A stretch of DNA of 64,000 bases from Prostheceraeus crozeri (taxonomy: Eukaryota; Platyhelminthes; Polycladida; Euryleptidae): the NCBI GenBank assembly GCA_907163375.1, contig CAJQUW010003207.1:37899-101898 (forward strand). Reading direction: 5' to 3'. Below are positions 33,168 to 50,227 of the stretch, in pieces. Under the pieces are notes generated by a model that saw nothing but the letters and a program-made list of their open reading frames with translations, did not search any database and had not been told where the DNA came from. The position numbers were made by a program, and so were the translations under genes. The stretch's first letter is position 1; each line of letters begins with the position of its first letter.

Positions 33168-33248
33168 TCCGAGGTTTGTACCAATTCTTATCAAAGGTTC
33201 TAATCCTCACGTTTACAAGTTACAATTATTTTAAATCTACAAGTCATA

Positions 33249-33716: not shown

Positions 33717-33969
33717 TGTGTTTTTTTCTTAATCTCTTCATTTAATATTCATTTGTATATATGAACAAACTTGTTTTATCATTTCACAAATCGGTCTTCA
33801 ATTAAGGTCTGAATGGGAAAGGGGAACAACTATCTACAATTAATGATGTTCAATAACTGAATTGAAACAAAAAATCAAATATGAAGACTTCAACTTGAAA
33901 TAAATAGGAACATATAACTTTTAAAGGAACCGTTATGTTGTTAATTTTAAAATGCTTGTAGCAGTCCAG

Positions 33970-34283
33970 GATGATATCATACATGTGTCATACACGACAC
34001 CATAAGAATGAGAATGAAAAGACCTTTCGAATGATATAAGGTATGTACCTATTCGATGGGAAAATCCTAGTTGTATGCAACTGTATGCAAGCAGACAAAT
34101 GTTAGATTTTTAAATTCACTAAGTTTTTAGCCCATTCTTTAAAGACATGTAGCTCTCTAGTTATATGTCATACATGTGTCATACAATACACCATTAGAAT
34201 CAGCATGAAAAGAGCATTCGAATGATATATTGTATGTACCCATTTGATGAAAAAATCCTAGTTGTATGCATCTGTATGCAACT
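33970..34283 (+). repeat. Two imperfect direct repeats of about 115 bp
   Basis: Copies at 33970-34088 and 34167-34283 share GTCATACATGTGTCATAC, ATGAAAAGA, TTCGAATGATAT, TATGTACC and CCTAGTTGTATGCA in the same order. Identity is roughly 80-85% by eye. Confidence 0.65.
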
Positions 34284-34385
34284 TGAAAAATTCCAAGTTT
34301 TTTTTACAAAAATGACTAAGTTTACAAATTTTCAAAGTTAAAGTTTTACAACTAAAAATGACCATAATATACAATCCTCTACACT

Positions 34386-34422
34386 TGACCTTGACCTTAG
34401 ACCTGACCTTGACCTTTGACCT
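34386..34422 (+). promoter_or_regulatory. Cluster of five TGACCT half-sites
   Basis: TGACCT at 34386-34391, 34392-34397, 34404-34409, 34410-34415 and 34417-34422. The last two form a DR1 (one-base spacer), and two pairs are DR0. AGGTCA/TGACCT is the nuclear-receptor half-site. Function is inferred from the motif only. Confidence 0.45.
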
Positions 34423-34945
34423 TCATACACTTCATTATTATTAGCCATGTTTTTTTTTAATTTTTCATCCTAAATTAAGTCATTGAGCGAGAGGCATGAA
34501 TATATCAGTTTAAATGTAAGTGTATTTAAATCAACAAGATTTTCACAGTTTGTTTATAAATAAAAGATACCTAAATAAAGCCTTCATCCATTTTAAATAT
34601 TCAGTCTGTCATCTGCTAACAGATGTATAAAATTCAAGCTTGTTTAATTAAACCAATTGAGAAGTGGTTCAAATTTTCGAAATCTCATTTTCATTCTGTT
34701 ATTATTTCGAAATTAAATAATGATTAATCAGCTGCTTCCAAATTTCATGTCTTTTTATGAACAAACCCTTTCGAATGAAATTAAAATTTCGAATCTCAGT
34801 TTCTATTTCATCCATGAATTTATTTCTTCTTAAGATTTGTCAAATATTAATCTAGTACTTAATTAAGGTTTGAAGATGGTATAGAAATGATTTCTCATTT
34901 AAAAAGAGATTAAATTATAATAAAATTTTTTTATCCTCTACAGAA

Positions 34946-36875
34946 ATGGTTCGACAAGAAAGCATCGCACGGCAACGTCTCATCTTCCATTTCTGTGAGA
35001 CTTGCCAACTGCCCGTTCGACATGCGAACAAAAGCGGGCATAAGGAATGCTCCTTCCGAGAGGACTGCACCTACCTCTACTGTCTCACGTGTAAGAGGTA
35101 TGAAAAGAGCGATGCAAAGGTGAATAGTGACTCCGCGAAAGCTTTCATTGCCAAGCACACCCCTTGTGCTCAACTAAATGGAAGAAAGGGGATTAACTTA
35201 ACCTCCAAAGTTGAGAAGAAGAAGTTGGAGCGTCTTTTTGGGAAGGAGCGACCGACTGAAGGCGTGCTTTCCCAGTTGGATGAACCTGCTCCAAAGGATA
35301 AGCCTCAAAAGTCTCGAGTTCCTAAGAGGAAAGTTCCTAAGTCTCGGGAGTTCATCGATGAGACTTTTAGTGATTGTGAGGTGAGTGCCATCAATTCTAC
35401 ATGCTAGCTTCAACGGATAACTGGCTCACAGCAGAAAAATAAAAAAATACTACTTCATTATGTATGAAATGATTATATGTTGTTAAACATTTCAGGATGT
35501 ACTGATGCCCCCACCGAAGAGAGCCAAGGTGTTGGTTCAGAAAAAACTGTTCGCTAAAGATGTAAGTATTTATTGACTAATTTAATTATTTCTATACATA
35601 AAGTAAATCAACATTGCTTAAACATTTCAGAGTGAGCTACCTCACCCGACAAAGACTAACGAGGATATAGTGGCCGAAAAATTGCGAAATGTAAGCATTT
35701 CAGTTATTTATTAGTTCTCAATGTGAAATTAAACATGAATTTTTCCTACTTTCAGCTGTTTCCTAGTGTTCAAAGCTGCCCAAAAATTCCGCGCTTACCT
35801 TCACCGAGGAGCAGACTACCTTCGAGTCCCGTAAGTGTCATTACATAGGTCTCAGTCAACAATAACTGAAAATGCATCAAGTATTTTTAAAAACATACAT
35901 ACTTCGTCAATGAGTTGCAAACATGTCATCATATTTTTCGTTGCAGTCTATGCGATCTCTGTCGCTGAAGAAGCACCACAGAAGCTTCTTGTCTACGCCG
36001 GCGACAACAACGTCGGTAGAGGACAATGAGGAGAAACCGTACTCAATTCGCGAGTCATCGGAGGATTCGGACTCCTCATCCGAGGATGAAGCCACTACTT
36101 CAGCGACTTCATCTCCGACGTCCTCTTCCGACGAAGATGATGATTCTGATGTACATGTAAGTATATGACTGGTTAACTGCATGTGTACAGAATTGTTTTC
36201 ATTAAAATTTATTTTAAAACACACTTGATTATTAATATATTCGTCTACAATTGATTAATTCATCTTTCAGAATGATTCGGTGACTCCTAAAAAGGCGAGT
36301 GGATCCGATCAAGAAACCGCAATCCAGCAGGAGGTAAGAGGAATTCACATTTGTATCTAATTAATGTCAAAAATGGTAAATGGATGATAAACAATTGTTC
36401 CTTTCAATTACAGGACTCCGTGATGTTTGCGTCTCAAGCGGAGATCTCATTCTCCAACATCCGGGCGTCTCCTAGCTGGAATGTCCACCTACCATTGTCG
36501 CCGATGATGACATTGGCCCCATCCTCAGCAGCTGATATCCCAGTCCCAGCTCCTTCACCTCCAACACCTATCCCAGTCGCAGCTCCTTCCTCTCCAACAC
36601 CTCCTATCCCAGCCGCAGTTCCTAAGGCTTCTCTCCCAGTACGCGAGTACAACGTAGTTCTTGACGCAACGACGGAGGAGGAGGACATCGAAAGCAAGTT
36701 ACGGCGGTGTCAAGAGCGATTGAAACAGTCCGAGGCTCGTGATGCTCAGTTAATGGAGGACAACAGAGGTTTGGTTGAGTCCTTACAAAACATAACTCAA
36801 TCAAACCTCATGTTGGCCTCACAAGTAACAAATAGCCAACGACACGACAAGGAGACCTTAGTCCACGTCGAGTGA
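34946..36875 (+). CDS. Seven-exon Polinton gene: zinc-binding N-terminus, phospho-acidic and coiled-coil regions, unknown function
   Basis: Exons 34946-35380, 35496-35561, 35631-35690, 35756-35830, 35947-36156, 36271-36333 and 36414-36875. Every intron is GT-AG (GTGAGT, GTAAGT, GTAAGC, GTAAGT, GTAAGT, GTAAGA donors; TTTCAG-like acceptors), every junction is phase 0, and all exons stay open in one frame: 456 residues. Residues 1-60 have a Cys/His arrangement (CETCQLPVRH, then CSFREDCTYLYCLTCK) that probably binds zinc. Next come basic PKRKVPKS segments, a Ser/Asp/Glu-rich tract in exon 5 (SSDEDDDSD), a Pro/Ala-rich linker and a C-terminal helical segment (SKLRRCQERLKQSEARDAQL) likely to form a coiled coil. 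It may be a regulator acting in the nucleus; no family recognised. The start follows an acceptor-like TCTACAG, so a 5' non-coding exon is possible. Confidence 0.75.
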
Positions 36876-37090
36876 AGCAATAACACCATCCGTAGGCTAA
36901 GACTGACGCGGATGGACGATTTGGGTGGCTGCAGTGAAAGCTGTAGCCACTTGAAACTATATCATAGTGGCATCGTGAAATGCGTGAAGTTATAACTTAT
37001 TTTTACTTTTGAAAAAAAATAGATTGCTTTAAATTTTATGTTTTCTCTTTACAACAGATCGGAACATATGGTATTGGCTGGTGATGACGC

Positions 37091-37120
37091 TGACGTCATT
37101 AGATGGTAGATGTATATAAG
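37091..37120 (+). promoter_or_regulatory. Polymerase gene promoter: CRE and TATA box
   Basis: TGACGTCA (37091-37098), the perfect CRE palindrome, then TATATAAG (37113-37120), 32 bp before the ATG at 37152. The spacing implies a very short leader. Confidence 0.7.
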
Positions 37121-37151
37121 GGCTTGCTAATTTCAATCCTCATCAATAATC

Positions 37152-40100
37152 ATGGTTGTCTGTACCAAGTGTGGAAAAGTGTTCACTCTCATAGGCAATT
37201 TGCAACGACATGAAAAGTTTTGTAAGTTAGGAAAAACATATCAATGTAGCAAGTGTCCATATAAGACGAATAGGATGGATAATCTTAAGAGGCATAAACT
37301 TGTATGCAATAATAAACCGAATGATAGCATAACAGAGTCAAATTCAAATAATCAAAATAGATCTACTTCTAAGCCAACAACCAGCGCTTCAACTAACATA
37401 CAAAACTTTATGCAATACTGCTCTCGGTGTGGCAAAACGTATAACTCTATAAGTAGATTTCGACAGCATATGAATGTACATAACACAAATAGTGAGATGA
37501 ATATGCATAATAACTATGGAACTGTTAGTCTCAGCGAAAGCGCACTCAATGGCCATGCACGTGTGTATGATATCACGCCAACAACACCTACTGTGGACAT
37601 AACATCATTCTTAGAAAGCATGCGTTCCATGTTAGGGAATTTAGTGTCTGACTTACTAAGGAGCTATCAATTGCGCGGTCGTCTGATTGCACAAATTCGT
37701 TATGTCCGTTCTAATCCTCAAGAAGAAGAAACTTTTCTCGCACACTTTACCTCATCATCCTCAAACTATATTTATGACTATGATGCTTGGTTTCAGGATC
37801 ATCTAAATAGTCTAATAAATCATATTGAAGCCTTCACAAAAAAGGGTAGCAATTGGATTATACATGATGTACAAAATATAGAGTTCATTGTAATAACAAG
37901 TCCAATACTGTCAGGTGGACAATCATTTCCTCTACCGAAGAAGTTAAAAAACTCTAAAGCTGTCATTAATGTTAATTCAAATGATAATGATGGCTTCCTA
38001 TATGCAGTTTTATCAATATTGCATTATAATGAAGTACCTTATTCAAGGAATGAAGTAAAATCATATAGTAAGTGGACATCTGAGATAAATATGGAAGGCA
38101 TTTCCACACCAGTATCAATCAAAGATATTCCAAAATTTGAGAAAAATAATGATATTAAAATTAACATTCACTTTTATGAAAATGGACTCAAAGGTGTTCG
38201 TTACAATAGTAACTTTACTGGTAGGCAAACGGTTAATATTTTGCTAATTCTAAACAATGGAGCAGCACACTATTGTGGAATTCCAAAGCTGTCAAGATTG
38301 TATAGGAAAACCTTAAAAAGACATAAATACTTCTGCGAAAGATGCACTCAGTCATTCACATATAAAACAACACTAGAGCGACACTTCCAGTTTTGTATTC
38401 GAGGAAAAGCACAAATAGAAAAAATGCCATCGGATCTAAAAGTACTAACAAGTAGCATGGAATATCAACTAAGTCCTCCTTTAGTAATTTATGCAGATAT
38501 AGAGTGCTACATTGATAATGAAATACATAAACCTGCGGCCATTGGAGCTTATCATGTCTGGCATAATGCCCTTCAATCAAAATTTGAAAACAAGTATTAC
38601 CTCTTTGAGGGAGAAAATTGCATTATTGGTTTCTTGTACCACTTAGAAACTGTAGCCCAAGACTTATATGACAACCAATGTGCAACAACTAGGCAGCCAA
38701 TGTCACTGTCAGCGGATGAAAAAGCACGCCATGAGAATGCAGAATGTTGCAACAAATGTAAATCGAAATTCAGCGATGAAGTCATAAAAGTTCGTGATCA
38801 TGATCATATCACCGGACGATATAGGCAAACATTATGTAGGAAATGCAATCTCCGGTTAAGACTTAACAGACGGGAGCTCCCCATATTTTTCCACAATTTT
38901 AAAAATTATGATAGTCACATCGTTTGCTATAAAGCGATTGGAAGAATGAAATCTTGGAAATTAGATGTTGTAGCAGCAACTGCTGAAAAATATATAACTT
39001 TATCCGCCAGTGTCCCTGTAAATGAATACAAAGGGAAGACAGTATACTTTAAACTAAAATTCTTAGACTCATATCAATTTCTAAGTGCATCCTTGAGTGA
39101 ATTAGCCAAGGGCTTGCAAACGTATAAGCATGTAGAGACATTAAGGGTAGAATTTCCACAATTAAGTGATAATGTTTTATATCAGAAGGGATTGTTTCCA
39201 TATTCATACTTCAAAAACTTAAACACGTTGACGGAAGACTGTCTACCACCACAATTTGAATTCTATAATGATCTTACTCGTGAGCACTGTTCCGATAGTG
39301 AATATGAACACGCTAACAAGGCATGGATTGAATTTAATTGTAGCACATTTGGTGATTACATGCTGGCATATCTGAAGTTAGATGTTTTATTGTTGGCAGA
39401 CATATTTGAAGTGTTTAGAGCATTGAGTCAACGTGAGGATGAAGTCGACCCTGTACATTTTGTCAGTCTTCCACATCTTAGCTTTACCTCAGCACTAAAT
39501 TTCTCTTCCAATGATCCCCTACACTACATACAAGATGAAAATATGTACAATCTATTTGAACGAGGAATTAGAGGGGGTATGACTTTCACCAACATTCACC
39601 GAGCGCGTGCACGCATTGAAGAATTAGAAAATAATACACATGAAAGTCGACATTTGACCGACTTAGATGTTAATAACCTTTACGGTTCTTCACTCAGTAG
39701 GAATCTACCCCACTCAAATTTCAAATGGTTGAATGAAAGTGAATTAGATAATTTTTTAATTGAAGAAAATGTTCAAAATATAGATGATGATGGTGAAATC
39801 GGCTACATTTTTGATTTAGATTTAGAGTATCCTGCAGCCATTCATGATGACACTGCCGATTTCCCATTAGCTCCAGAAATGCAGATGATTGAAAAGAGAA
39901 TGTTTTCACACTATATGAAAAATCTATATGAAAAAGTAAGACCAAATACACATTTTTCTTCTATCAAGAAACTTCTGCTCCATCAATTTGATAGGGAAAA
40001 TTATGTAGTCCACTATTCAATTTTAAAATTTTACTTGACCATGGGCATGAGAATCAAGAAGATTCATAGTGGCATAAAATTCACACAAAAGCCTTGGTTA

Positions 40101-41009
40101 AAAACATACATTGATATGAACTCTCAAAAGAGGGCTCAATCAAACACTGACTTCGAAAAGTCATTCTACAAATTGAAAAATAATTCTTTATATGGTAAAA
40201 CAATGGAAAATGTAAGGAGAAGGAAAAAATTTAAACTAGTCAACAATGAGAAACAACTACTGAAATTGTCAAATCATCCTCTCTATGTTCAACACAAAAT
40301 ATTTGATGAAGATCTGGTTGGTATGGAAATGTACAAACCTTCAATAGTTTTAAATAAATTAATATATGTTGGTCAAGCAGTACTTGACTATAGTAAGTTG
40401 GAAATGTATCAATTATATTACAATGATCTAAAAGGGTGTCCACTGATAAATAGAACGCGGCTTTGTGGAGGTGATACCGACAGTTTCTTCCTATGTTTAT
40501 ACACATCACCATCTGTCCGTCTGGAAGATATACTTCTATACTTCGGTGAAAAGTTTGACTCTTCAAACTATGATAGTCATCACCGACTATACTCAACTAC
40601 AAACAAAGCTAGATTAGGTTGTTTTAAGGATGAGTGTGCTGGAAAGTTGCTTGAGGAAATGATCCTACTAAAACCGAAAATGTATTCAATGAAATATCTA
40701 GACTCTACGAATCATAGCATCAAACGTGCAAAAGGAATTCAGAGAGCAGCAGTTAAAAAATTGAAACATGATGACTATAGGAGTGTCTATTATAGTGAGA
40801 ATGATACAACTGAAGATATGACAATTATAAATTCAAAAAATCACATAGTTAGCACAAAATCATTTAGGAAGCGAGGTCTTTCACTTTGGGAGGATAAGCG
40901 CTGTTGGCTGGATAAAAATTTATCATTACCATATGGACACTACAGCCTAGGTCTTCCCCCACCGTCGAAGAGAAGGAGATGCCTTCCTGTCACAGGTGAT
41001 GTAGAATAA
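37152..41009 (+). CDS. PolB: Protein-primed family B DNA polymerase
   Basis: 1285 residues, intact. Replicates the element from its ends. N-terminus: three C2H2-type fingers (from CTKCGKVF, CSKCPYKT and CSRCGKTY), then a domain around residues 150-260 also found alone at 58265, then an OTU-peptidase-like segment near residues 277-390 (DNDGFLYAVLSILH ... GAAHYCG), and a fourth finger (CERCTQSF). The exonuclease domain begins with YADIEC (D449, E451), continues with IFFHNFKNYDSH, and ends with YLKLDVLLLADIF. Polymerase motifs are complete: A DVNNLYGSSL (D839), B KLKNNSLYG (K1007-G1015) and C GDTDS (D1108, D1110). The protein-primed subgroup fits Polintons. AATAAA follows at 41015. Confidence 0.95.
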   Translation: MVVCTKCGKVFTLIGNLQRHEKFCKLGKTYQCSKCPYKTNRMDNLKRHKLVCNNKPNDSITESNSNNQNRSTSKPTTSASTNIQNFMQYCSRCGKTYNSISRFRQHMNVHNTNSEMNMHNNYGTVSLSESALNGHARVYDITPTTPTVDITSFLESMRSMLGNLVSDLLRSYQLRGRLIAQIRYVRSNPQEEETFLAHFTSSSSNYIYDYDAWFQDHLNSLINHIEAFTKKGSNWIIHDVQNIEFIVITSPILSGGQSFPLPKKLKNSKAVINVNSNDNDGFLYAVLSILHYNEVPYSRNEVKSYSKWTSEINMEGISTPVSIKDIPKFEKNNDIKINIHFYENGLKGVRYNSNFTGRQTVNILLILNNGAAHYCGIPKLSRLYRKTLKRHKYFCERCTQSFTYKTTLERHFQFCIRGKAQIEKMPSDLKVLTSSMEYQLSPPLVIYADIECYIDNEIHKPAAIGAYHVWHNALQSKFENKYYLFEGENCIIGFLYHLETVAQDLYDNQCATTRQPMSLSADEKARHENAECCNKCKSKFSDEVIKVRDHDHITGRYRQTLCRKCNLRLRLNRRELPIFFHNFKNYDSHIVCYKAIGRMKSWKLDVVAATAEKYITLSASVPVNEYKGKTVYFKLKFLDSYQFLSASLSELAKGLQTYKHVETLRVEFPQLSDNVLYQKGLFPYSYFKNLNTLTEDCLPPQFEFYNDLTREHCSDSEYEHANKAWIEFNCSTFGDYMLAYLKLDVLLLADIFEVFRALSQREDEVDPVHFVSLPHLSFTSALNFSSNDPLHYIQDENMYNLFERGIRGGMTFTNIHRARARIEELENNTHESRHLTDLDVNNLYGSSLSRNLPHSNFKWLNESELDNFLIEENVQNIDDDGEIGYIFDLDLEYPAAIHDDTADFPLAPEMQMIEKRMFSHYMKNLYEKVRPNTHFSSIKKLLLHQFDRENYVVHYSILKFYLTMGMRIKKIHSGIKFTQKPWLKTYIDMNSQKRAQSNTDFEKSFYKLKNNSLYGKTMENVRRRKKFKLVNNEKQLLKLSNHPLYVQHKIFDEDLVGMEMYKPSIVLNKLIYVGQAVLDYSKLEMYQLYYNDLKGCPLINRTRLCGGDTDSFFLCLYTSPSVRLEDILLYFGEKFDSSNYDSHHRLYSTTNKARLGCFKDECAGKLLEEMILLKPKMYSMKYLDSTNHSIKRAKGIQRAAVKKLKHDDYRSVYYSENDTTEDMTIINSKNHIVSTKSFRKRGLSLWEDKRCWLDKNLSLPYGHYSLGLPPPSKRRRCLPVTGDVE

Positions 41010-41014
41010 GTCTA

Positions 41015-41020
41015 AATAAA
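41015..41020 (+). terminator. Polyadenylation signal after the polymerase gene
   Basis: AATAAA six bases after the polymerase stop. Its closeness means that the hairpin cluster at 41057-41226 straddles or follows the cleavage site. Confidence 0.5.
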
Positions 41021-41056
41021 AACAATATAATATTCCACTTGTAATAGATCTTGCGA

Positions 41057-41226
41057 TTGCTGCATCTTCCGACATGTAGCAACACTTACTAATACATAAG
41101 TAGTCTTACTAAAATTGAAATTTCTACATCTTTCCGATATGTAGAAATGATTACTAATAAATAGGTAGTCCTAATGTGAATGAATATGTGAAGAATTTGT
41201 ACTCAACATCATTCCGATATGTTGAG
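41057..41226 (+). repeat. Three tandem stem-loops with different stems and the same loop
   Basis: 41057-41082: TTGCTGCAT / ATGTAGCAA around CTTCCGAC (one G.U as RNA). 41120-41148: ATTTCTACAT / ATGTAGAAAT around CTTTCCGAT. 41202-41226: CTCAACAT / ATGTTGAG around CATTCCGAT. The stems differ in sequence yet stay paired, while TTCCGA in the loop is constant. The first two are followed by the same stretch, ACTAATA then GTAGTC. The pattern points to a conserved structure, as RNA or as cruciform DNA, between the polymerase and PC4-like genes. Confidence 0.75.
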
Positions 41227-41267
41227 CTAATAAAATAACAAACTTTAGGCAAACATTAAACCTAAAT

Positions 41268-41849
41268 TTGAAACATAGCTTTCGGAACATGCCTCAATAC
41301 ATTAGAACATGGAAACTTAGTGACGTTCAAAACGTTCACATAACAAATTCTAAAAGAATAGCATTTCGTCATTCAATAGCAAATAGTGATCGAAAACATC
41401 GTGGCGTTTGCATTAGTATTGACTCATTGCCTTCACTGAAAGACTTTGCGGATCTCATTGACAACCATAAGACTCGGATCAAGATTCCTCTCGATGACAA
41501 GGTATGGATAAAGTGTGATTCATCAGTCAAACTATACGTCTGTTCACCAAAACGTGAAGATGTTGAATATCGATTTTTTCGTTTCAGTGACGTCACATGG
41601 GAAACCTTTACAAGGGAGATACTACCCCAGATAACGTCATTCATGAAAGATGGAGGACATCAAACGGTTGGAAGTTGTAAATCGGATGTTAACTACAAAA
41701 GCAAAGTCAAAACTCAATCTACAAGAGATCGAGAGGAATATACCCAACCGAAAACAATGGTTACTGATAAAACGCAAATTGAAGCCGACAACGAGCTTAC
41801 ATCTTGGAAGACCCTCAATGTTAACATGGAGGATTCAGAGGAAGGATAG
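41268..41849 (+). CDS. PC4-like (transcription coactivator p15-like) ORF
   Basis: 193 codons as tracked; the more likely ATG is MPQYIRTW at 41289. The block IRTWKLSDVQNVHITN ... FRHSIANS ... KHRGVCISIDSLPSLKDF has the order of a PC4 domain: a Trp/Leu start, two strands, a basic residue, then (K/R)-G-(V/I)-x-(L/I)-S/D and a final helix with a hydrophobic-rich LKDFADLID. A second, similar strand-helix pattern follows (VWIKCDSSVKLYVCS ... WETFTREILPQI). PC4 proteins bind single-stranded DNA and assist transcription. The last 66 codons (after 41650) overlap the TBP-like ORF in another frame and look like low-complexity charged filler. The family call rests on pattern only. Confidence 0.5.
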   Translation: MKHSFRNMPQYIRTWKLSDVQNVHITNSKRIAFRHSIANSDRKHRGVCISIDSLPSLKDFADLIDNHKTRIKIPLDDKVWIKCDSSVKLYVCSPKREDVEYRFFRFSDVTWETFTREILPQITSFMKDGGHQTVGSCKSDVNYKSKVKTQSTRDREEYTQPKTMVTDKTQIEADNELTSWKTLNVNMEDSEEG

Positions 41850-42219
41850 ATCTCTCACTATCCTATTCTTTCCAAATGGAACAATCCAATGTATTGGAAG
41901 GGTCATGGAGGGTGATCTCTCATATCTACACTTAACTTTGGAACATTTACTTGGTGATTCATTATCTGATTGGAAAGTGAAGACAATGACCGTGTTATGT
42001 GAATTACACTATCACTATGATTTCCGTAAAGTTACATCATCACATAATCTAACTTATGAAGTGGAGTTATTTCCAGCAGCTCAATTGACTAACTGGCATC
42101 CATATCATGTTCATGTGTTCCATAATGGAAAGATTGTGATAACCGGCATTAAAGACATAAGTGATGTGCCTCCCATCATATGTGATTTGAAAAAATGTTT
42201 CATGAAAACCAAATTGTAG
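41650..42219 (+). CDS. TATA-binding-protein-like (TBP-fold) protein
   Basis: 189 residues, the length of a TBP core. It shows the two pseudo-repeats of TBP in order. Repeat 1: NRMLTTKAKSKLNLQEIE, then LTILFFPNGTIQCIGRV (the strand with the G-x-hydrophobic-x-C-(T/I)-G of TBP). Repeat 2: WKVKTMTVLCELHYHYDF, then YEVELFPAAQ (TBP has YEPELFPG) and VHVFHNGKIVITGIKD (TBP: the GK-hydrophobic-V-(L/I)-TG strand). A TBP binds the TATA box in the minor groove and nucleates the preinitiation complex. The gene follows the polymerase and PC4-like ORFs on the same strand and overlaps the latter by 200 bp. Several promoters of this element have TATATAAG boxes. Fold confidence is high; function is inferred. 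Confidence 0.82.
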   Translation: MEDIKRLEVVNRMLTTKAKSKLNLQEIERNIPNRKQWLLIKRKLKPTTSLHLGRPSMLTWRIQRKDRSLTILFFPNGTIQCIGRVMEGDLSYLHLTLEHLLGDSLSDWKVKTMTVLCELHYHYDFRKVTSSHNLTYEVELFPAAQLTNWHPYHVHVFHNGKIVITGIKDISDVPPIICDLKKCFMKTKL

Positions 42220-42325
42220 ATTTTGTATATATGTGAATAGATAATGAAATATAAACATATTTTTGTTTTCCTTATAAACCCTTGTTTTGGAAAAAAGAGA
42301 GCAAGATAATGATACAACATAAAAA

Positions 42326-42331
42326 TTTATT
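42326..42331 (-). terminator. Polyadenylation signal after the protease gene
   Basis: AATAAA on the minus strand, about 45 bp beyond the protease stop. It is in the 156-bp gap where the two gene blocks converge. Confidence 0.5.
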
Positions 42332-42375
42332 TCAAAACGGTTTCGACATATTTAGTAAGAATTACATCATTTTTA

Positions 42376-42792
42376 TCACAGTTTTTTTGAAAATAGTTCT
42401 AAAGCACTTTTACAGTTATTTTTCAATGGTCTCTCATTGACAAAATAGAGTACATAGCCACCGCACATTAGAGATGTATTACTTTGAAGTGGGAACGATG
42501 TCACTTTCCTAACAGTCCAGGAGAACCTGTTCATCCATAATGCGATATCATGTAAACGAGGTTGATTCAGAGAGTCAAAATATTCGGCCACTTTATAACG
42601 ATTGATGTATACAGCAATCCAATGTTTTCCGGGAAGATTGTTGGTATCCGTATTGATGATAAGCGAACAAGGATAGAAATGAATTGAATCAGGTAAATTA
42701 TCTCTAGAAAAGACATTGAGAAATATTGTCTTGGAGTAGGGATGAGCTTTCCTCATTTTCCTCAAGATTTCTATGTTGCTTAAGTTACTCAT
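42376..42792 (-). CDS. PRO: Adenain-like cysteine protease
   Basis: 138 residues; the maturation protease of Polinton virions. Catalytic residues are visible in order: GKHWIAVY (His57), AEYFDSLNQP (Asp73), Gln103 and LMCGGYVLYF (Cys110). Adenovirus adenain has the same His - acidic - Gln - Cys order but about 200 residues; Polinton forms are shorter. It is the last gene of the leftward block, and its ATG overlaps the capsid gene's stop by four bases (ATGA), so the two are probably made from the same transcript. Intact. Confidence 0.88.
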   Translation of the reverse strand: MSNLSNIEILRKMRKAHPYSKTIFLNVFSRDNLPDSIHFYPCSLIINTDTNNLPGKHWIAVYINRYKVAEYFDSLNQPRLHDIALWMNRFSWTVRKVTSFPLQSNTSLMCGGYVLYFVNERPLKNNCKSALELFSKKL

Positions 42793-44072
42793 CTCTGATA
42801 GCTGACAGTCACGTCTCTCATTCTTGTTATCTCAACTTTGCTATCATAGATAGCATAAATGAGACAAGTAATTGTTTTCTCCAAAGGTGACTCAAATGAT
42901 ACCTCCAGTCGTAGATTTCCAGACTTTGTAACTCCTACGCTTTCACCACCTAGATCTGCATCTGCTGTGAGGTTGTACATAATGAAGAAGTAGCCATTCT
43001 TGTACATATCCATTGTAATTCCATCTGAATCATCTGTATTAAACATGTTGAGGGCGGTGAAAGTAGAACCATAGTCACGTGCGAATTTACCATCTTTGAA
43101 ATTAGGCTCATATGCTTTGCAAGATACAAATTTCCCATCCTGATAGAGTGCTAGTTTGCTAACATTAAAGTGTTGGAAATTGAATGGATTCTTTTCAAAA
43201 GCACCAATGAATGCCTCATTTTCCACAAATGTGATATACACCGCCTTTGGCATTGCAGTGGGAAAAAGATTTGGGTAGGCATGTGAGGATGATCCCGCAC
43301 CAATTGTGAAGTTTGTCAACACACTGTGATTAACTGGATATATTGCATTGTTTTTCCTCAATCCTGTCGCATGCTCGTTGATGACTGACGGGTTCATTGT
43401 TACTCGCCTTACATTGAGCACGGCATTACTTATGTTGACTTGATAGCTTGTATCTCCAAAAGCCATTAACGCGAACTCAGGATTTGCACGAATAAATTTT
43501 ATTTGCATTTTAACCTGTGATAGCAGATATCTAGATTGACGAAGGAAATCAAGATAGACGGGTCCTTTCAAGTATAATTCCTTTGAATCCGCTGTCAAAT
43601 CCATTCGTCTTTTCAACCCTGTATTTGAGACATCATCAAATTTCCCTTGCTGATCATCATACCACCCAGAAACTTGCAAGTGTGACTGTTTAGCTTTCTT
43701 TTGAAATTGAGTCATTGTATGTATATATGCTCCATATGGATATGCTCGATCCCCTCCTTCAATCTGTTTGTCATTCAATATTAGATACACATCTGAGAAC
43801 AGACTGGCAATAGGAAGATTTGCCAATCCCACTTTATCCTTGGATGAATCGATATTTGTACCATCAGTCTTCTTAATTTGTATACACAACTCTAAATCAA
43901 TGGATTGACAGTCAATATAATCTTGAGGATTGGCAGGTATATCAAACTGAATAGGCTGCTGGTTACCATCGATATTTGTTGTGGGGACTATGTCTACAAT
44001 TGTTGAGGAGATGATGTCTGTCTGATGAGGGGGAGAATCGAAGAAACACAAAGCCGAATTGATACTCTGCAT
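42789..44072 (-). CDS. MCP: Major capsid protein (hexon-like, double jelly-roll)
   Basis: 427 residues. The start (TDIISSTIVDIVPT, then QPIQFDIPANPQDYIDC) and the end (VLIYAxYD-type strand, here CLIYAIYDSKVEITRMRDV) match the second element's protein at 62529-63761 and are typical of the metazoan Polinton/adintovirus capsid family often listed as 'F54H12.2-like'. These proteins form the trimeric hexon-like capsomers. No signal peptide or membrane segment is expected or seen. It lies between the pX-like gene and the protease gene, as in the second element. Assignment to MCP rather than penton follows that family and the gene order. Confidence 0.75.
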   Translation of the reverse strand: MQSINSALCFFDSPPHQTDIISSTIVDIVPTTNIDGNQQPIQFDIPANPQDYIDCQSIDLELCIQIKKTDGTNIDSSKDKVGLANLPIASLFSDVYLILNDKQIEGGDRAYPYGAYIHTMTQFQKKAKQSHLQVSGWYDDQQGKFDDVSNTGLKRRMDLTADSKELYLKGPVYLDFLRQSRYLLSQVKMQIKFIRANPEFALMAFGDTSYQVNISNAVLNVRRVTMNPSVINEHATGLRKNNAIYPVNHSVLTNFTIGAGSSSHAYPNLFPTAMPKAVYITFVENEAFIGAFEKNPFNFQHFNVSKLALYQDGKFVSCKAYEPNFKDGKFARDYGSTFTALNMFNTDDSDGITMDMYKNGYFFIMYNLTADADLGGESVGVTKSGNLRLEVSFESPLEKTITCLIYAIYDSKVEITRMRDVTVSYQR

Positions 44073-44082
44073 CGTATTAGCT

Positions 44083-44565
44083 TTACAAATATGTTGTCTT
44101 CCTTCGTTTTGACTTGTTTCTAGTCGCAGTGGAATTTCGTTTGCGCTTTCTTGTTTTCACTCGACGTCTAGATTTAGAACGTGCTGCTCTAGTCGGCTTT
44201 TTACTTTTCCTGCGTCTTTGCTTAGTAACTCGACCGGATCCAACTTGTCTTGACTTCCTACGCTTCTTCCGAACTGTACGTCTCGTCTTTGTTAAATCAT
44301 CTAATGCGTCTATGGCAGATTGCTGCGCGCGCATTTTCATAGATTCACCGATATCCTCACCTTGAAGCGCATCAGCTGCAACATTTGCACCAAAATCTAA
44401 AGCCCTGCTTCCAACACGCTTCATAATTGGTACGCCATACTTTTTGAGTGTTGGAAGAACCATACGTCTTAGTGCACCAAATATGCCTCCTCCAACTTGT
44501 CGTCTACCTCCAACAAACACGGGATAACCGCTCTGATATGATGGTCTACTGTAAATGCCTGTCAT
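44083..44565 (-). CDS. PX: pX-like basic virion core protein
   Basis: 160 residues. Starts with YSRPSYQSGYPVFVGGRRQ, then GGGIFGALRRMVLPTLKKYG, an amphipathic/hydrophobic Gly-rich segment. From about residue 95 it is a long Lys/Arg-rich tail (KKRRKSRQ, KQRRRKSKKP, KRRKTTYL). Adenovirus pX/mu-like and Polinton PX proteins combine a GG-containing protease-processing region with such a basic tail and condense the packaged DNA. The homologue at 62072-62527 starts with the same SRPSY...GG..IGARRQ...GG pattern. It ends 11 bp before the capsid gene starts. Confidence 0.75.
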   Translation of the reverse strand: MTGIYSRPSYQSGYPVFVGGRRQVGGGIFGALRRMVLPTLKKYGVPIMKRVGSRALDFGANVAADALQGEDIGESMKMRAQQSAIDALDDLTKTRRTVRKKRRKSRQVGSGRVTKQRRRKSKKPTRAARSKSRRRVKTRKRKRNSTATRNKSKRRKTTYL

Positions 44566-44608
44566 TATGACTATTGAATAACTATGGAAGTCACAATAGC
44601 GTAAAGCC

Positions 44609-46213
44609 TTATTCTCGTGACCTAATATGTAGGGTCAAAACAGTAACACCACCACAGAACGGTACTACTTCTCCTGCGTCATCATGAATTGATATGTCAA
44701 TTCTATTGATGAAATTTCGGCTGATTGGTAGATACATTGTGTTAAAAAATTCTCGATTGATTAGTTGCTTCCTTACGGATGAGAGAGGAAATGTGCGCAG
44801 AAGTGGGGCCTCAATGTCGCCAACCCTTGTATATTCAATAATGTTACAATAGACGTATAAGTTACTTATATCACGCTCTAGTGATGGGGCGGTATCGCCT
44901 ATTGATGTGCCTTCATAAATAGTTGATTTTGAGAATCCCAATGTGGTCGTTAACACGCTATCCAGCTTGATAAGAGAGTTCTTCCTTACCTTTACAATCA
45001 TGCGTTTCTTATGCGGGTCATAAGAAAAGTGATATTCATCTGCATCAAGGTAATATACACCAAACTCATTTAACTTTGTACACAATTCAGATGGCGTTTT
45101 CAAGCTTTCAATGTTCAAATTAACTCTTTTTACAAGTTCACTGGAAGTAGACAATTCATCACCCAATATGTCTTCGCTGTATACGTGGATATCCCATGAA
45201 GCATTTGTTGATGCTTTGAGTTTAGAAGAGGACAATTGAACCTTGAATGTATCATTTAATTCTGTCAACCAAGGTGCGCTTTCAAGGCCCTTAAACATCC
45301 CAATCATTTCAGATCCGAATTCAATAACAGCGGACTCAGACTTTTCCAATGGTGTCTTTTTAGTAAAAACAATAAATTCTGCCTCCGTTTCAACAGTAAA
45401 TAAAGTTACTTTCTCTTTCTTATATTCACAAGTCATTAACGTTTCTGGCACTGATCCTTGAAACTTTCTTGCAAAGTCTTCAACACTTCTAATGACCTCA
45501 AATTTATTTTTTACTCGGATGCTCCTTTTTTGTAATGCATACAATGGCACAATTCTACATTGAAAATCAGTGACTTTCCTCTCCGAATTCCACCCACGTC
45601 CATTGTACCAATACCTTGATGAGAAAGTTGTTCTGGAATACCCAAAAGTATGACTCAAATCCTTACCTAATACAAGAAGAACATGCTTCCCTTCCTTCAT
45701 CAGTTTTGTTGACCCCTTTATGACTGGTTTGTAGAATTTATTCAAAGTCAGCTTGAAGAGATCATTTATTCGTTCAAACATTCTACCGATTTCCTTTTCT
45801 GTATCTTGCAAGCTCATTGTGGGAACCTTAGAATCAAAAGTTGACGTTGCAAATGCCTTTTGAATTTTAATCATGTTTTGGACAGATGGTAAAAATGTTG
45901 AAAAAGGATGTAAAGTTAGATGATGAAAAGCCCATGTACCATGTAGACTATTTTGAATTATGCGAAAGCAATCATCCTTCTCTCGCACTTCTTTATGTAG
46001 TTCAAAATAGTTGTTCTTTAGCAAACTGATATCGTTGTAATAAGTAATTTCAGTTAGAGCAGCTTCATGGGGTCCATGCAGAGTAATTGGATTAGCGAAT
46101 TCAACAGAGTATAGAGATGGTTTGTTACTTGGGAATATCTTGGGGTTGCTATTGCTTGGAAGAATGATGTTGAAGTTAGTAGACATGTTAAACTCATATA
46201 TGGAAGAAGTCAC
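44609..46213 (-). CDS. Putative penton / minor capsid protein
   Basis: 534 residues; the more likely start is the ATG at residue 10 (MSTNFNIILPSNS). The N-terminus (FNIILPSNS ... FPSNKPSLYSVEFANPITLHGPHEAALTEITY) is the strand pattern of the Polinton/adintovirus second capsid protein: polar 'LPSN', 'NKPS.Y...', 'L.G.wEvAL.eI.Y'. It continues through a long middle to a C-terminus with YVYCNIIEYTRVGD and LLRTFP. Position between integrase and pX-like gene fits a structural role. No such gene exists at the equivalent place in the second element. Family call from pattern; exact vertex function inferred. Confidence 0.6.
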   Translation of the reverse strand: MTSSIYEFNMSTNFNIILPSNSNPKIFPSNKPSLYSVEFANPITLHGPHEAALTEITYYNDISLLKNNYFELHKEVREKDDCFRIIQNSLHGTWAFHHLTLHPFSTFLPSVQNMIKIQKAFATSTFDSKVPTMSLQDTEKEIGRMFERINDLFKLTLNKFYKPVIKGSTKLMKEGKHVLLVLGKDLSHTFGYSRTTFSSRYWYNGRGWNSERKVTDFQCRIVPLYALQKRSIRVKNKFEVIRSVEDFARKFQGSVPETLMTCEYKKEKVTLFTVETEAEFIVFTKKTPLEKSESAVIEFGSEMIGMFKGLESAPWLTELNDTFKVQLSSSKLKASTNASWDIHVYSEDILGDELSTSSELVKRVNLNIESLKTPSELCTKLNEFGVYYLDADEYHFSYDPHKKRMIVKVRKNSLIKLDSVLTTTLGFSKSTIYEGTSIGDTAPSLERDISNLYVYCNIIEYTRVGDIEAPLLRTFPLSSVRKQLINREFFNTMYLPISRNFINRIDISIHDDAGEVVPFCGGVTVLTLHIRSRE

Positions 46214-46226
46214 ATGCTATATTAGC

Positions 46227-47378
46227 TCAAAAGTTACGAGTGTCTCCCATCTCCACATTTTGTAGATCCTGGTGCGTTATCCAGCTATTGAATGAATCAG
46301 GATATCCTTTCCATTTAACTAGATATTTCCTTTGATTGCCATGACCTTTCCTCCTAATTATTTTGTCAATCATATACACCTCTTCACTTCTGTCTACTAC
46401 TTGCAATTCATAAGAGTAAAATTTTCCTTCAATTGGATTGCCATGGTAATCTATTAATTTATACATGGTGGGTCTAAATTTTGTATTTACTTCATCCACA
46501 AAAAACTCTTCTTCAGTCCAATTAGGTAGATACCCCTTCTCAAATGTAGACTTAACCTTTGAAATCCGAACTCTATCACCAACATTAATTTTCTTTTCAT
46601 TGGAAATGTTTTTCGCTTTCTCATCATACAATCGAAGCCATACATCCATCGCATTATCTGGGGTAACATCAACTGGTTTCATCTTAATGATTCGATGGTA
46701 GCTTTCATTGTAATTCTTAACAAATTTCTGCAGCTCACCTACCCAAACATGTGTATTTTTTGCAGTGAAATAGCGCCATATTTTTGTCTTCAGTGTGCGA
46801 TTGAACCTCTCAACCATGGCAGCTTTATAAGCACTTTTGACACTAAACAATTCCACATTATGACTTTTAAGGAGACTTCGAACATGAGAGTTTTCGAATT
46901 CCTTCCCTTGATCGGTCTGTATTCTTTGCGGAACACGCCCCTCATCGAAAATGCTCTGAAAAGCCGCTTCAACTTCTGGTCCTCGTTTAGATTTCAGCGC
47001 ACGTGCCCAAGCATAGCGAGATAAAATATCTATTACAGTTAAGATGTATTTATAGCCATCATTGTACTGTGATATCTGTTGCATGTCAGCCAAGTCCGCT
47101 TGCCATTGACTATCTATATTGTTAACAACATATTTTCTTGTTGGAAACCGCTTTCTCGCATTTTTGTGAAGAGTGTAAGTCGGTTGACTCCTCAACCACT
47201 TCTTGACTTTCTCTATTCCCACACCTGCTGCACGAGCTAGAACCTCCAGACGACTGAAACTTGCGGGATGATTTAAGTCGTAATAAATCTTCCTCAGCTT
47301 CACGGCTGTACTCATCGTCTTTGTTCTGATTTGCACGCGTATTACTCGCACAGCAACTGCTAACACAATTGATATCAA
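46227..47378 (-). CDS. INT: Polinton integrase with C-terminal chromodomain
   Basis: 383 codons as tracked; a start at residue 22 (MSTAVKLRKIYYDL, 47315) is more likely, as homology begins there. N-terminal helical region, then an rve-type core with WQADLADMQ (first Asp), IQTDQGKEFEN (second Asp) and AAMVERFNRTLK (Glu): the D,D-35-E triad. Then an SH3-like strand segment (GDRVRISK ... WTEEEFFVDEV) and a chromodomain: VYMIDKIIRRKG, KYLVKWKGYPDSFNSW. It joins element ends to the host chromosome and makes the 6-bp duplication; the chromodomain may bind methylated histones. Intact. Confidence 0.93.
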   Translation of the reverse strand: MISIVLAVAVRVIRVQIRTKTMSTAVKLRKIYYDLNHPASFSRLEVLARAAGVGIEKVKKWLRSQPTYTLHKNARKRFPTRKYVVNNIDSQWQADLADMQQISQYNDGYKYILTVIDILSRYAWARALKSKRGPEVEAAFQSIFDEGRVPQRIQTDQGKEFENSHVRSLLKSHNVELFSVKSAYKAAMVERFNRTLKTKIWRYFTAKNTHVWVGELQKFVKNYNESYHRIIKMKPVDVTPDNAMDVWLRLYDEKAKNISNEKKINVGDRVRISKVKSTFEKGYLPNWTEEEFFVDEVNTKFRPTMYKLIDYHGNPIEGKFYSYELQVVDRSEEVYMIDKIIRRKGHGNQRKYLVKWKGYPDSFNSWITHQDLQNVEMGDTRNF

Positions 47379-47448
47379 CCTCTATGCCCTCTTCTGCTTT
47401 ACCTTCGAGCGCAGATTTCAAACAACAGCAAAATTTTTGTAACGACAT
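47122..47448 (-). CDS. Small cysteine-rich protein overlapping the integrase start
   Basis: 108 codons, overlapping the first 250 bp of the integrase frame. Cysteines: FCCCLK near the N-terminus, NCVSSCCA, SCSRCG and a terminal KKICC. The second element has an equivalent at 60764-60979 (MCCLPC, CTCGA, CCSCRKC) in the same place, also overlapping the integrase region. Conservation of position and cysteine content, not sequence, is the support. Family unknown; only the first 45 residues before the overlap may be under selection. Confidence 0.5.
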   Translation of the reverse strand: MSLQKFCCCLKSALEGKAEEGIEVDINCVSSCCASNTRANQNKDDEYSREAEEDLLRLKSSRKFQSSGGSSSCSRCGNRESQEVVEESTDLHSSQKCEKAVSNKKICC

Positions 47449-47482
47449 GATATGAGAGAGGCAAGGCTTAATTCATATTTGC

Positions 47483-48133
47483 TTAATATTTACTATACTC
47501 CTTCGCAACACGCATTGAGCGCCTAGTAGCTCTTTTTGGTTGCAGATCATCGGGATCATGAAGCTCTCGCTTGACCGCCATCGTGGGTGTTTTACTCTTT
47601 GATCCATCTTGTAAGTGACCCTTATCCAATTCATTCACAGTCGGTCCTCCAATAATATTGTGAGGTACATTTTGATCAGATAAAATTTTCTGAAAATATG
47701 ACCACCCTTGTGGTGCACCTAGTTTTCGCCTTACATCTCTGACAGCATATTGCAGAAGGTCATCTATGTGACTATTTCTAATAACATCACCAGTTGTTTC
47801 ATCTATTATCTCTCCTCTCTCATTGAACTTCACATGTGGATCAATGAAGTCAAATAATCGCTCAGCGCGCACACGATATGGTCGAGGTGTTGACAAGGTT
47901 ATAAATCGTCGCAACTTGTCACGAATCTGTCGCCTCTCGTCAATGTTTTCAGCTGCTAACTGCATTCGTCGATAGGGATCCTTAATCTTCTGAATTTCCA
48001 TATCCTTTTGTGTTAGTTCCTTAAGTTGATTCGTAATAGGCTGATCTATATTTTTGACTTCCTGTGCACTTTGTAATGTAGTCAATTGTACATACTCCTC
48101 TTGAGGAATGACTACCATCTTTGAATACGACAT
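47483..48133 (-). CDS. Conserved Polinton protein of about 216 residues, unknown
   Basis: The ATG at 48133 (MSYSKMVVIPQEEYVQL) is chosen over one 30 bp upstream because the homologue at 60070 starts MSSYSRMIVIPQDEYVQL. A central helical, charged region (YRRMQLAAENIDERRQIRDKLRR) leads to HVKFNERGEIIDETTGDVI and a block GWSYFQKIL...NVPHNIIGG that recurs in the homologue. The C-terminus is basic (KRATRRSMRV). Copies exist in all three elements, always right after the packaging ATPase, so it is probably a virion or packaging component. I know no name with certainty. Confidence 0.75.
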   Translation of the reverse strand: MSYSKMVVIPQEEYVQLTTLQSAQEVKNIDQPITNQLKELTQKDMEIQKIKDPYRRMQLAAENIDERRQIRDKLRRFITLSTPRPYRVRAERLFDFIDPHVKFNERGEIIDETTGDVIRNSHIDDLLQYAVRDVRRKLGAPQGWSYFQKILSDQNVPHNIIGGPTVNELDKGHLQDGSKSKTPTMAVKRELHDPDDLQPKRATRRSMRVAKEYSKY

Positions 48134-48172
48134 GTTTGAAAATAATAAGGCAACAAAGTACATTGCTTACAA

Positions 48173-48808
48173 CTAACTGTGAACCGAGAAAACTGTCATT
48201 GGTTCAGCGGAATTAGGTATGATATTTGTTCGAAATCGAAGTCGTTCCGGACATTCCTGGGTTAGATCAATAAATAGATAACCATGTGGTTTCTTTGTTA
48301 CATCTTCATTTATTTTTGAAAGTACTTTAGGTTGTTGAGGTAATATCTGTCTACTGAGATGATGTATCTGACTGCTATCTCTTGGATTTTTAAATATTGC
48401 CAAATAATGTGTATTCAAACTTCTAGTTCTTTGCTCTTTCCCTCCATCGAAGATGTTTTGGGTGATGTAGATAATAAAAGCTTCCCTATGATGTGCAGTT
48501 TGAATGAACATTTCAGTTACATCCTTTGAAGATTTGCTTTCTCGTAATAGATCATCTAATACTAGTAAGTCACCTGCTTTGATATCCTCAGTTGATGGCA
48601 ACCCTTGCTTCACCTCATAACCTTTCTGGCGAAGTGTAGAATGTAGTTGTGGTTGAAATATTCCACAATATAATTTGACTCTCTTAATTTCCTTGTTAAA
48701 CATTTCATTTCTATATTGTAGCAATTCAGTTACAAATGTAGTTTTACCGGACTGACTTGGTCCAGCGACACACATTGTGCGATCAGTGAATAGACGAAAA
48801 TCTGTCAT
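48173..48808 (-). CDS. ATP: Packaging ATPase (A32/FtsK-HerA type)
   Basis: 211 residues. Walker A: CVAGPSQSGKTTF (residues 16-23). Walker B: LLVLDDLL (81-88). Then a sensor-like block FIIYITQNIFDGGKEQRTRSLNTHY and RDSSQIHHLSRQ, an arginine-containing motif typical of viral packaging ATPases. It translocates DNA into the preformed capsid. It begins the densely packed leftward late block (ATPase, 216-aa protein, Cys-rich, integrase, penton, pX, capsid, protease). No TATA box is visible upstream. Intact; the other two elements carry broken copies. Confidence 0.92.
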   Translation of the reverse strand: MTDFRLFTDRTMCVAGPSQSGKTTFVTELLQYRNEMFNKEIKRVKLYCGIFQPQLHSTLRQKGYEVKQGLPSTEDIKAGDLLVLDDLLRESKSSKDVTEMFIQTAHHREAFIIYITQNIFDGGKEQRTRSLNTHYLAIFKNPRDSSQIHHLSRQILPQQPKVLSKINEDVTKKPHGYLFIDLTQECPERLRFRTNIIPNSAEPMTVFSVHS

Positions 48809-48889
48809 CTTATAATTCCATTAACATTAAACTCATCATCCCGCTAATTTTGCTTAGAACAACAAAACAGTCACATGTTCCAGATCACG

Positions 48890-48895
48890 TTTATT
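48890..48895 (-). terminator. Polyadenylation signal after the 244-aa gene
   Basis: AATAAA on the minus strand, about 55 bp downstream of the stop at 48950; the spacing is typical. Confidence 0.5.
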
Positions 48896-48949
48896 TACAT
48901 TCAGAATAGAAACTTTCAAGTTACATTTACAAATTAAAACATTTACAAA

Positions 48950-49684
48950 TTAAAACATTTGTGTTTCCTCATCACAATTAGGATTATAGAAAGTTTTCAA
49001 GTCAGCATCTTGGCGCTTCAACTTCAATTTAGGAATCCCATCTTTAGATTTCCGCCCTCGCTTTTTGCTCTCTTCCTTCCCATCACTTGAAGCAGTCTTA
49101 TCAATGTTAATTAAACATTTATCAATTGGTAGTGGTTCATAGACTAGTTGAAGAACCTTCATTTGTAAAGATGCGACTTTACCAGTCGAACCATGTGAGC
49201 CAATATAAAGTCCGGTAACGTGCACTAAGCCCATATAGCGGCCCCGTTTGAGATCCTCACATTCCATCGCGTTTGTAAAGAGATCGAATGCTTGAAAATG
49301 ATCCGATAGTTTTAAAAACAGTGTATCGAATTCCGGCAATTCCTTATAACCAACTCCTTCCTCTAATGCCTTTCTCCAATGAGTGGGAGCACTTTCAGGC
49401 AGCTCAACACATTCTTTCGCGAAAGAGTCAATAGTTTTAGGAATCACCTGTTGCCATTTTGGAAAAGTCACTCGCATTTGTCTCATATTGCTATACCCTG
49501 ATGTAGATATACCATTACTGTGGAAGAATGGAACTTGAAGATAAAAGCCATCATCACCATAATTCAAGGTTTGAAAGTAGAATGTATTTCCAATCCCTTG
49601 CACCTTTCGTGTCGGACGAAGCTTCAAGAGATCTTGCTCAAAAGCGTCACCTTCCTCTCTGATTGTATACATTTTCTGAGTCAT
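48950..49684 (-). CDS. Conserved Polinton protein with basic tail, possible ssDNA-binding protein
   Basis: 244 residues. It shares with the protein at 56660-57434 a block VTGLYIGSHGSTGKVASLQMK (there VNGLYYGRHKDNKIASLSMH), a preceding WxxxL region, and a Lys/Arg-rich C-terminal stretch (KKRGRKSKDG here). The strand-rich body and basic tail would suit an OB-fold single-strand binder for protein-primed replication; this is a guess. It has its own TATA box and a TGACTCA (AP-1-like) site, and lies apart from the packed late block, which suits an early gene. Intact. Confidence 0.65.
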   Translation of the reverse strand: MTQKMYTIREEGDAFEQDLLKLRPTRKVQGIGNTFYFQTLNYGDDGFYLQVPFFHSNGISTSGYSNMRQMRVTFPKWQQVIPKTIDSFAKECVELPESAPTHWRKALEEGVGYKELPEFDTLFLKLSDHFQAFDLFTNAMECEDLKRGRYMGLVHVTGLYIGSHGSTGKVASLQMKVLQLVYEPLPIDKCLINIDKTASSDGKEESKKRGRKSKDGIPKLKLKRQDADLKTFYNPNCDEETQMF

Positions 49685-49769
49685 GTTTCAACAAGTACTA
49701 ATTCGGAGCTTTCAACCAGCGCAAATGAATTGTCACTTGAAAGTGGTAAAATATCATTAAAGCGTCTTC

Positions 49770-49794
49770 CTTATATACACCTATATATGACTCA
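49770..49794 (-). promoter_or_regulatory. TATA box and AP-1-like site of the 244-aa gene
   Basis: Minus-strand TATATAAG at 49777-49770, about 86 bp before the ATG, and TGAGTCA at 49794-49788 just upstream of it. Confidence 0.6.
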
Positions 49795-49835
49795 TCAATC
49801 AAAGTGATGACGTGTCACTTAATGATTCGCTAACC

Positions 49836-50227
49836 TTATATTAACATTGCAGCAGTTGCTGCAATCCTTCCAAGCGGACTATTGATTACACCATTAATAC
49901 TGTTTCCAATATCATTTAACATACTTAGAAACCCACCACCACCGCGCTGAATTAAGTTTCGCCTTTTCTTATCACTACTCCTTGGATTTGAAAACTTTTT
50001 TATGCTATTCAAAGAGCCAGCATTCAACAGAGGCTTGTAAATAGGTAGACATTTGTGTATTGCAAAAGCTAAATCACGAATGAAATCATCACTTGAATTT
50101 TGAATCAATTACACTTCTTCTTATTATCATGTATCCTGTTTAACTTTCGCAACGCCTTTTTAAACTGACTTGAAGGTTTGAAGGACCGTTTCGATTGACG
50201 AGAAGATGCCTTCCGTTTTACAGACAT
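49836..50227 (-). pseudogene. Core-like basic GGFL protein, frameshifted
   Basis: The ATG at 50227 opens a Lys/Arg-rich N-terminus (KRKASSRQSKRSFK, FKKALRKLN) that stops near 50110. A frame offset by one base continues from about 50108 with SSDDFIRDL, a basic DKKRRNLIQ and GGGGFLSML. The intact homologue at 59053 has all of these in one frame (DKFIREI, QRKRKTLTQ, GGFLSAIL). So one indel near 50105-50115 splits an otherwise preserved gene. Likely a DNA-condensing core protein. Confidence 0.65.

Follow-up and report, generated by a model that had tools for sequence, protein, structure and literature searches.

A Polinton of the flatworm Prostheceraeus crozeri encodes a divergent TATA-binding protein that may serve its own late genes

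A Polinton in the genome of the polyclad flatworm Prostheceraeus crozeri carries its own gene for a TATA-binding protein (TBP). The element, here called element A, lies in a 64,000-nucleotide (nt) stretch of contig CAJQUW010003207.1 (assembly GCA_907163375.1, positions 37,899 to 101,898 of the forward strand); this whole stretch is referred to as the window, and coordinates are positions within it. The open reading frame (ORF) at 41650..42219 (+ strand; 189 amino acids [aa]) contains two TBP repeats and is a real, selected, Polinton-borne TBP. Two classes of box lie upstream of genes of element A, namely, the TATA-type TATATAAG and a sequence close to TANGC(A/T)A, and we think that the latter is the likelier TBP target. 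A heavily altered TBP may let a Polinton switch on its own late genes ("early" and "late" being labels by analogy throughout).

A TBP gene in a Polinton

Element A spans 32298..52024 (19,727 bp) and has terminal inverted repeats beginning AGTAGTGAAAAC (left, 32298..32601; right, 51680..52024). A perfect 6-bp target duplication, GTAATG, bounds the inverted repeats on both flanks, and the element also contains a retroviral-type integrase. A preliminary description of the window had proposed that a Polinton here encodes a TBP homolog with both repeats, and the proposal held. The ORF matched the Pfam TBP family (PF00352) with 49 bits (cut-off, 22.9), and all 18 of its aligned relatives hit the family at an E value of 0.01. 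The comparison of predicted structure suggested in that description gave the same answer: the AlphaFold model is a two-repeat saddle, and its 38 best structural matches are all TBPs, with 18 to 23% identity in structure alignments to solved TBPs. Named giant-virus TBPs rank among the best viral fold matches. A profile search with this TBP returned 186 related proteins, 120 of which were listed; among database proteins, P0093 joins an X-like domain (see below) to a TBP missing its first strand, which is either a fusion or a frame slip.

The genome that we searched (2.05 Gb) has a separate host TBP on contig 9306, split into two pieces with 15 kb between them; over 119 and 34 residues, respectively, these match human TBP at 86% and 91% identity. 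The element's ORF is 28% identical to this host TBP over 121 aa. In a tree of 96 proteins, a branch 5.3 changes per column long separates its 94 relatives from the TBPs of yeast and human. Because of this low identity and long branch, the element TBP is no recent copy of the host gene, as had been suspected from its divergence. Another stretch, on contig 3829, is 43% identical to human TBP over 115 residues, with an internal stop in one of the two reported matches, and is what we take to be a TRF2/TBPL1-like gene. TRF2 is, to our knowledge, restricted to animals, in keeping with an animal host. We gave next to no credence to chance similarity or to a carried host TBP pseudogene, either of which is refuted by the Pfam match, the fold, the ratios of nonsynonymous to synonymous substitution rates (dN/dS), the tree, and the separate host TBP.

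Selection, copies, and related families

When the ORF was used as a genome query, all 150 scored places (the window included; 10,671 candidates) encoded a 100% identical protein, and the TBP-bearing family has therefore spread recently. One 2-Gb genome thus holds at least 150 places with an identical TBP ORF along with several further TBP-bearing families; these copies are a very large, recent Polinton expansion. A query with a relative of the ORF also scored 150 places, one of which has an internal stop. Thirty of these were fetched: 25 are 82.5 to 85.7% identical to the ORF (subfamily B), two are 69 to 71% identical (subfamily C), two are 96% identical, and one is 98% identical. The dN/dS of the TBP gene, a check that the preliminary description had called for, was about 0.14 between subfamilies (0.147 for A-B, 0.138 for A-C, and 0.135 for B-C), the ratios being approximate because the A-C dS exceeds 1. 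Over seven pairs it ranged from 0.128 to 0.42, with the highest values in two close pairs that have few changes. The first 66 codons are missing in most database relatives and are constrained as well, with a dN/dS of 0.05 to 0.24 in five between-subfamily pairs and of 0.39 and 0.52 in two close pairs. Selection maintains the TBP ORF.

A second Polinton, of family D, begins in the same window (56820..64000; +) and runs off the contig end, its own TBP region lying beyond the window. That region is supplied by two pieces from other contigs, both belonging to near relatives; they are 98.9% identical to each other, and their capsid gene is 42% identical to that of element A. A check named earlier, whether other Polintons hold the same gene next to the polymerase, came out positive for the gene: the family D TBP (33% identical to that of element A; Pfam, 71.8 bits) adjoins the protease on the opposite strand, as in element A, and the polymerase lies outside the pieces read. 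These pieces also contain an X gene overlapping TBP and a second X copy. The two X copies stand in tandem (L055:8201-8851 and 8874-9230; -), one of them being the copy that overlaps TBP. At six TBP loci of further families, tblastn found an X-like stretch in five, and an open, overlapping X-like ORF of at least 80 aa is present in three (L060, L061, and L062, not L063, L064, or L066).

Residues of the element TBP

Residues were counted over 95 family members of 150 to 280 aa in yeast TBP numbering, and their roles (DNA-intercalating phenylalanines and minor-groove, TFIIB, and TFIIA contacts) are assumed from established TBP structures. Three of the four intercalating positions, F116, F190, and F207, are Phe in all 95 members. 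The TFIIB stirrup is kept as well (E186 in 92 members, E188 in 91 with Asp in 4, and L189 in 94), and its counterparts in the element A ORF are the contact residues E137, E139, and L140 (E-x-E-L). Changes concern the DNA-reading and TFIIA-facing surfaces: V122 is Gln in 95/95 and corresponds to Gln80 of the 189-aa protein, T124 is Leu in 78/95 and Ile in protein P0001, and the TFIIA contacts K133 and K138 are Glu in 64/95 and 69/95, respectively, and neither Lys nor Glu in P0001. From this pattern we infer a protein that would bend DNA and recruit TFIIB, read the center of its box differently, and do without TFIIA.

Two classes of upstream box

The TATATAAG box occurs four times over both strands of element A, each time 39 to 93 nt before an ORF: at 33160..33167 (+; 89 nt before ORF 33249), 37113..37120 (+; 39 nt before the presumed polymerase ORF), 49770..49777 (-; 93 nt before ORF 49684; kept in B and C), and 51027..51034 (-; 55 nt before ORF 50979; kept in B and inexact in C). 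The copy before the polymerase is not exactly kept in B, and overall the box is retained at two of three compared places in B and one of two in C. Subfamily C has two extra copies, which lie in the capsid region on the opposite strand; the box is absent from the family D piece read, and in element A both the X-TBP pair and the capsid genes lack it. A blind search of the four TATATAAG ORFs plus two more returned TATA-like words, a result reached by 9 of 300 random sets. The TATATAAG boxes suit host TBP. At several of the four promoters (49684, 50979, 37152, and 33249), TGAGTCA- or TGACGTCA-like and CCAAT-like letters stand nearby, as in host-type promoters.

Eight genes without TATATAAG, i.e., the X-TBP pair and the structural ones, share a box of about TANGC(A/T)A. 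On the plus strand, it reads TAGGCAA at 41246..41252, 43 nt before X. On the minus strand, TAAGCAA occurs at 42776..42782 (ahead of a second protease ATG and within the ORF as listed), 47479..47485 (37 nt ahead of ATG 47448, which lies a short way upstream of the integrase ORF), 48163..48169 (36 nt ahead of the second ATG in ORF 48163), and 48850..48856 (48 nt before the ATPase gene), along with AAAGCTA at 44078..44084 (12 nt ahead of the presumed capsid gene and lost in C), TACGCTA at 44597..44603 (38 nt before ORF 44565), and TGAGCTA at 46223..46229 (43 nt ahead of the second ATG in the presumed minor capsid gene).

The consensus WRVGCWA lies within 70 nt upstream of 8/8 of these genes in A, 7/8 in B (not X), and 7/8 in C (not the capsid gene), and before none of the six other ORFs of A (0.076 expected per window). 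The stricter TANGC(A/T)A is found in 6/8 windows in A, 0/6 other ORFs, and 4/9 windows in D. A blind 8-mer search of A from raw ORF starts ranked TTAAGCTA first; 4 of 300 random window sets did as well, and the figure was again 4/300 with moved starts. When six of the eight genes are taken together, A and C agree in 65 of 72 columns of the 12-nt box versus 161 of 312 in the flanks (Fisher, 2.5e-10), and A and B agree in 68 of 72 versus 238 of 300 (Fisher, 0.0017). The candidate late box is largely conserved in two subfamilies, and in a third family it is weakly supported.

Several points weigh against the late box or against a TBP that reads it. The box was found post hoc and with another ATG taken as the start for four of the eight genes (integrase, ORF 48163, presumed minor capsid, and protease); for the integrase, that ATG (47448) begins a small ORF in a different frame. 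The pattern WRVGCWA was fitted to A, and TANGC(A/T)A was picked after D had been seen. The footprint comparison counted alignment gaps as differences and was made without the capsid and protease genes, which include losses in C, where the capsid gene has no box and the protease match spans the ATG itself. Box-to-ATG distances of 12 to 48 nt would imply very short leaders, and ORF 50979, a TATATAAG gene, bears a near match (GGCTAATA). Family D gave no significant blind result (top words CCATGCAA, TAGGCAAA, and TATGCAAA; 41 of 200 random sets), nor did its 100-nt windows (top word TACGCAAA; 15/200). A matrix built from A to C reached a p value of 0.031 or less in three of nine D windows, with mixed statistics (rank test, p = 0.14; combined, p = 0.02; 34 of 1,000 resampled sets). 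TATGCAAA occurs four times in D, three of them before ORFs of this kind, and contains what we take to be the POU octamer ATGCAAAT, so that a host factor could read these boxes. In the protein, the position of yeast F99 is not Phe (Pro in 92/95 by the wider alignment; in P0001, by another alignment, L58, adjoining M57). Finally, scans of IMG/VR returned no relative of this TBP and likewise none of the capsid, integrase, or polymerase.

Possible roles of the element TBP

In the mechanism that we propose, the early genes would be those with TATATAAG, among them the presumed polymerase along with some accessory ORFs, and host TBP would start them. A late class would be made up of X and TBP together with the genes for capsid, protease, ATPase, and integrase, under the TATA-sized TANGC(A/T)A box, which the viral TBP would bind and bend through its three kept phenylalanines. 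It would then recruit host TFIIB through the kept stirrup, work without TFIIA, and thereby deliver the host's RNA polymerase II to this late class. Among the ten element A ORFs scanned with Pfam, there was neither an RNA polymerase subunit nor a TFIIB. The gene, its predicted fold, its conservation, and the two classes of upstream box are observations, and we infer the binding, the TFIIB recruitment, and the timing. That the viral TBP directs host RNA polymerase II to late genes in the way that herpesviral factors do seems to us, by analogy, about evenly balanced between right and wrong. The full two-stage program, with host TBP on TATATAAG genes and the element TBP, with Val122 changed to Gln, on TANGC(A/T)A genes, is more tentative and seems to us less likely than not.

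The preliminary description had instead pictured self-directed transcription in which the viral TBP binds the TATATAAG boxes, the element thereby supplying its own promoters. The boxes do precede four ORFs, in 4/4 copies, and P0001 retains V213 and T215 (yeast numbering). However, TATATAAG fits the host TBP, which is present in the genome; the TBP and capsid genes lack it; it is kept at only some of the compared places in B and C and at none in the D piece; and the family-wide V122Q change would be unneeded. Self-direction through TATATAAG is less economical than a late-gene TBP, and we regard it as unlikely. The loss of the TFIIA lysines, mostly to Glu, and the retention of the TFIIB stirrup would also suit a decoy or inhibitor that binds TFIIB or TATA DNA without TFIIA contacts, dampening host transcription and freeing polymerase for the element. 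Such a role would hardly require three DNA-facing phenylalanines in 95/95 members, nor would a pure decoy need the candidate second promoter class; we consider it quite improbable. Very little probability attaches, in our judgment, to a role in replication, whereby TBP and X would bend or open DNA at origins for a protein-primed polymerase and the box would be an origin or a host POU-factor site, given that the boxes precede many genes in gene orientation and that the TFIIB-facing residues are kept.

The element-encoded TBP is a concrete candidate for the switch by which Polintons turn on their capsid genes. If the two-stage program is right, element A would be, as far as we know, the smallest system to pair, in one mobile element, a divergent TBP with its own core promoter sequence. 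The element A protein also carries the range of virus-encoded TBPs beyond large DNA viruses, down to a 20-kb transposon, and provides a naturally occurring TBP whose DNA-reading surface is altered.

Protein X and the other genes of element A

Plus-strand genes run in the order presumed polymerase, X, and TBP. Protein X (41289..41849; +; 186 aa) is a conserved gene of the element, lying upstream of the TBP ORF and sharing its last 200 nt with it in another frame. Residues 1 to 123 are predicted to form a tandem beta4-alpha (Pur-alpha-like) domain, and residues 124 to 186 are disordered; X had no Pur-alpha match by sequence in Pfam or PDB. As a predicted single-stranded-DNA binder that would be coexpressed with TBP, X probably acts in replication or in the opening of promoters. 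In the stretch that separates X from the presumed polymerase, at 41050-41230, three stem-loops carry a similar TTCCGA loop on 7- to 9-bp stems that differ in sequence (folds of -9.9, -6.0, and -4.7 kcal/mol), with similar letters upstream of X in B and C; they are candidates for an RNA element or a dyad binding site. The ORF at 37152..41009 (+; 1,285 aa) matches zinc fingers and Endonuclease_7 in Pfam and had no polymerase match in Pfam or PDB, and we presume it to be the polymerase from its motifs.

On the minus strand, the order from the right is ATPase, ORF 48163, integrase, presumed minor capsid, ORF 44565, presumed capsid, and protease. The packaging-type ATPase (48173..48808) has AAA_14 and Pox_A32 matches under the cut-offs, and the C48-like protease (42376..42792) has a weak Pfam match, also under the cut-off (E = 0.031). 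The presumed major capsid protein (42789..44072) is so labeled from position and analogy, with no match in Pfam or NCBIfam; the presumed minor capsid protein (44609..46213) is named from its position and had no Pfam match. The integrase ORF (46227..47378) contains rve (E = 3.4e-13) and Chromo domains. In A, a 108-aa ORF (47122-47448; -) runs across its start in a different frame, whereas the family D integrase is a single open ORF of 406 aa, which hints at an intron or a frame change in A. Elsewhere in the window (1300-4259, 11005-14133, 19609-20502, and 21516-22025), ORFs resemble, by eye, non-LTR retroelements and mariner-type transposases.

Comparison with known systems

A functional parallel to the proposed role is found in herpesviruses, whose early promoters have TATA and whose late promoters have TATT, the latter bound by the viral TBP BcRF1; in vitro, BcRF1 on its own does not distinguish the two boxes (PMC4893493). 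The TBP-like proteins of beta- and gammaherpesviruses (Epstein-Barr virus [EBV] BcRF1, murine herpesvirus 68 [MHV68] ORF24, and cytomegalovirus [CMV] UL87) have in common with the proposed system a TBP fold, a TATA early box with a variant late box, and host polymerase II, but they act in a six-protein complex and are about 10% identical to TBP (PMC4893493), whereas the element A protein is stand-alone, TBP-sized, recognizable by sequence, and encoded within a 20-kb integrating element.

Virus-encoded TBPs are also a feature of giant viruses, mirusviruses, and algal viruses, whose genomes are far larger. TBP is present in 59% of mirusvirus genomes (PMC10132985), and the algal virus CpV-BQ1 has its own TFIIB and TBP, which are thought to redirect the host polymerase (PMC12085832). 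A 2024 survey counted virus TBPs in three families and added four, all of them large (PMC11410667), and the part of another report available to us places TBPs in the mirusvirus-like elements of an alga and not in its Polinton-like viruses (PMC10675990). Among the literature matches listed, from a search with most subscription journals outside its coverage, there was no TBP in a Polinton, Maverick, or adintovirus, and TBP terms are absent from the available text of PMC11071308, PMC11071296, and PMC10120064.

The predicted fold of X resembles repeats I and II of Pur-alpha (PURA), from which X differs in its disordered tail and in having no sequence match. The TBP itself shares the saddle fold and two repeats of cellular TBP and TRF2/TBPL1 and differs from cellular TBP in its changed F99, V122, T124, and TFIIA contacts and in a GRPxM motif. 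Element A resembles Polintons/Mavericks and animal adintoviruses in its terminal repeats, 6-bp duplication, integrase with a chromodomain, putative ATPase and protease, and capsid-like ORFs; the literature matches name no TBP in that group, whereas TBP and X are conserved genes of element A.
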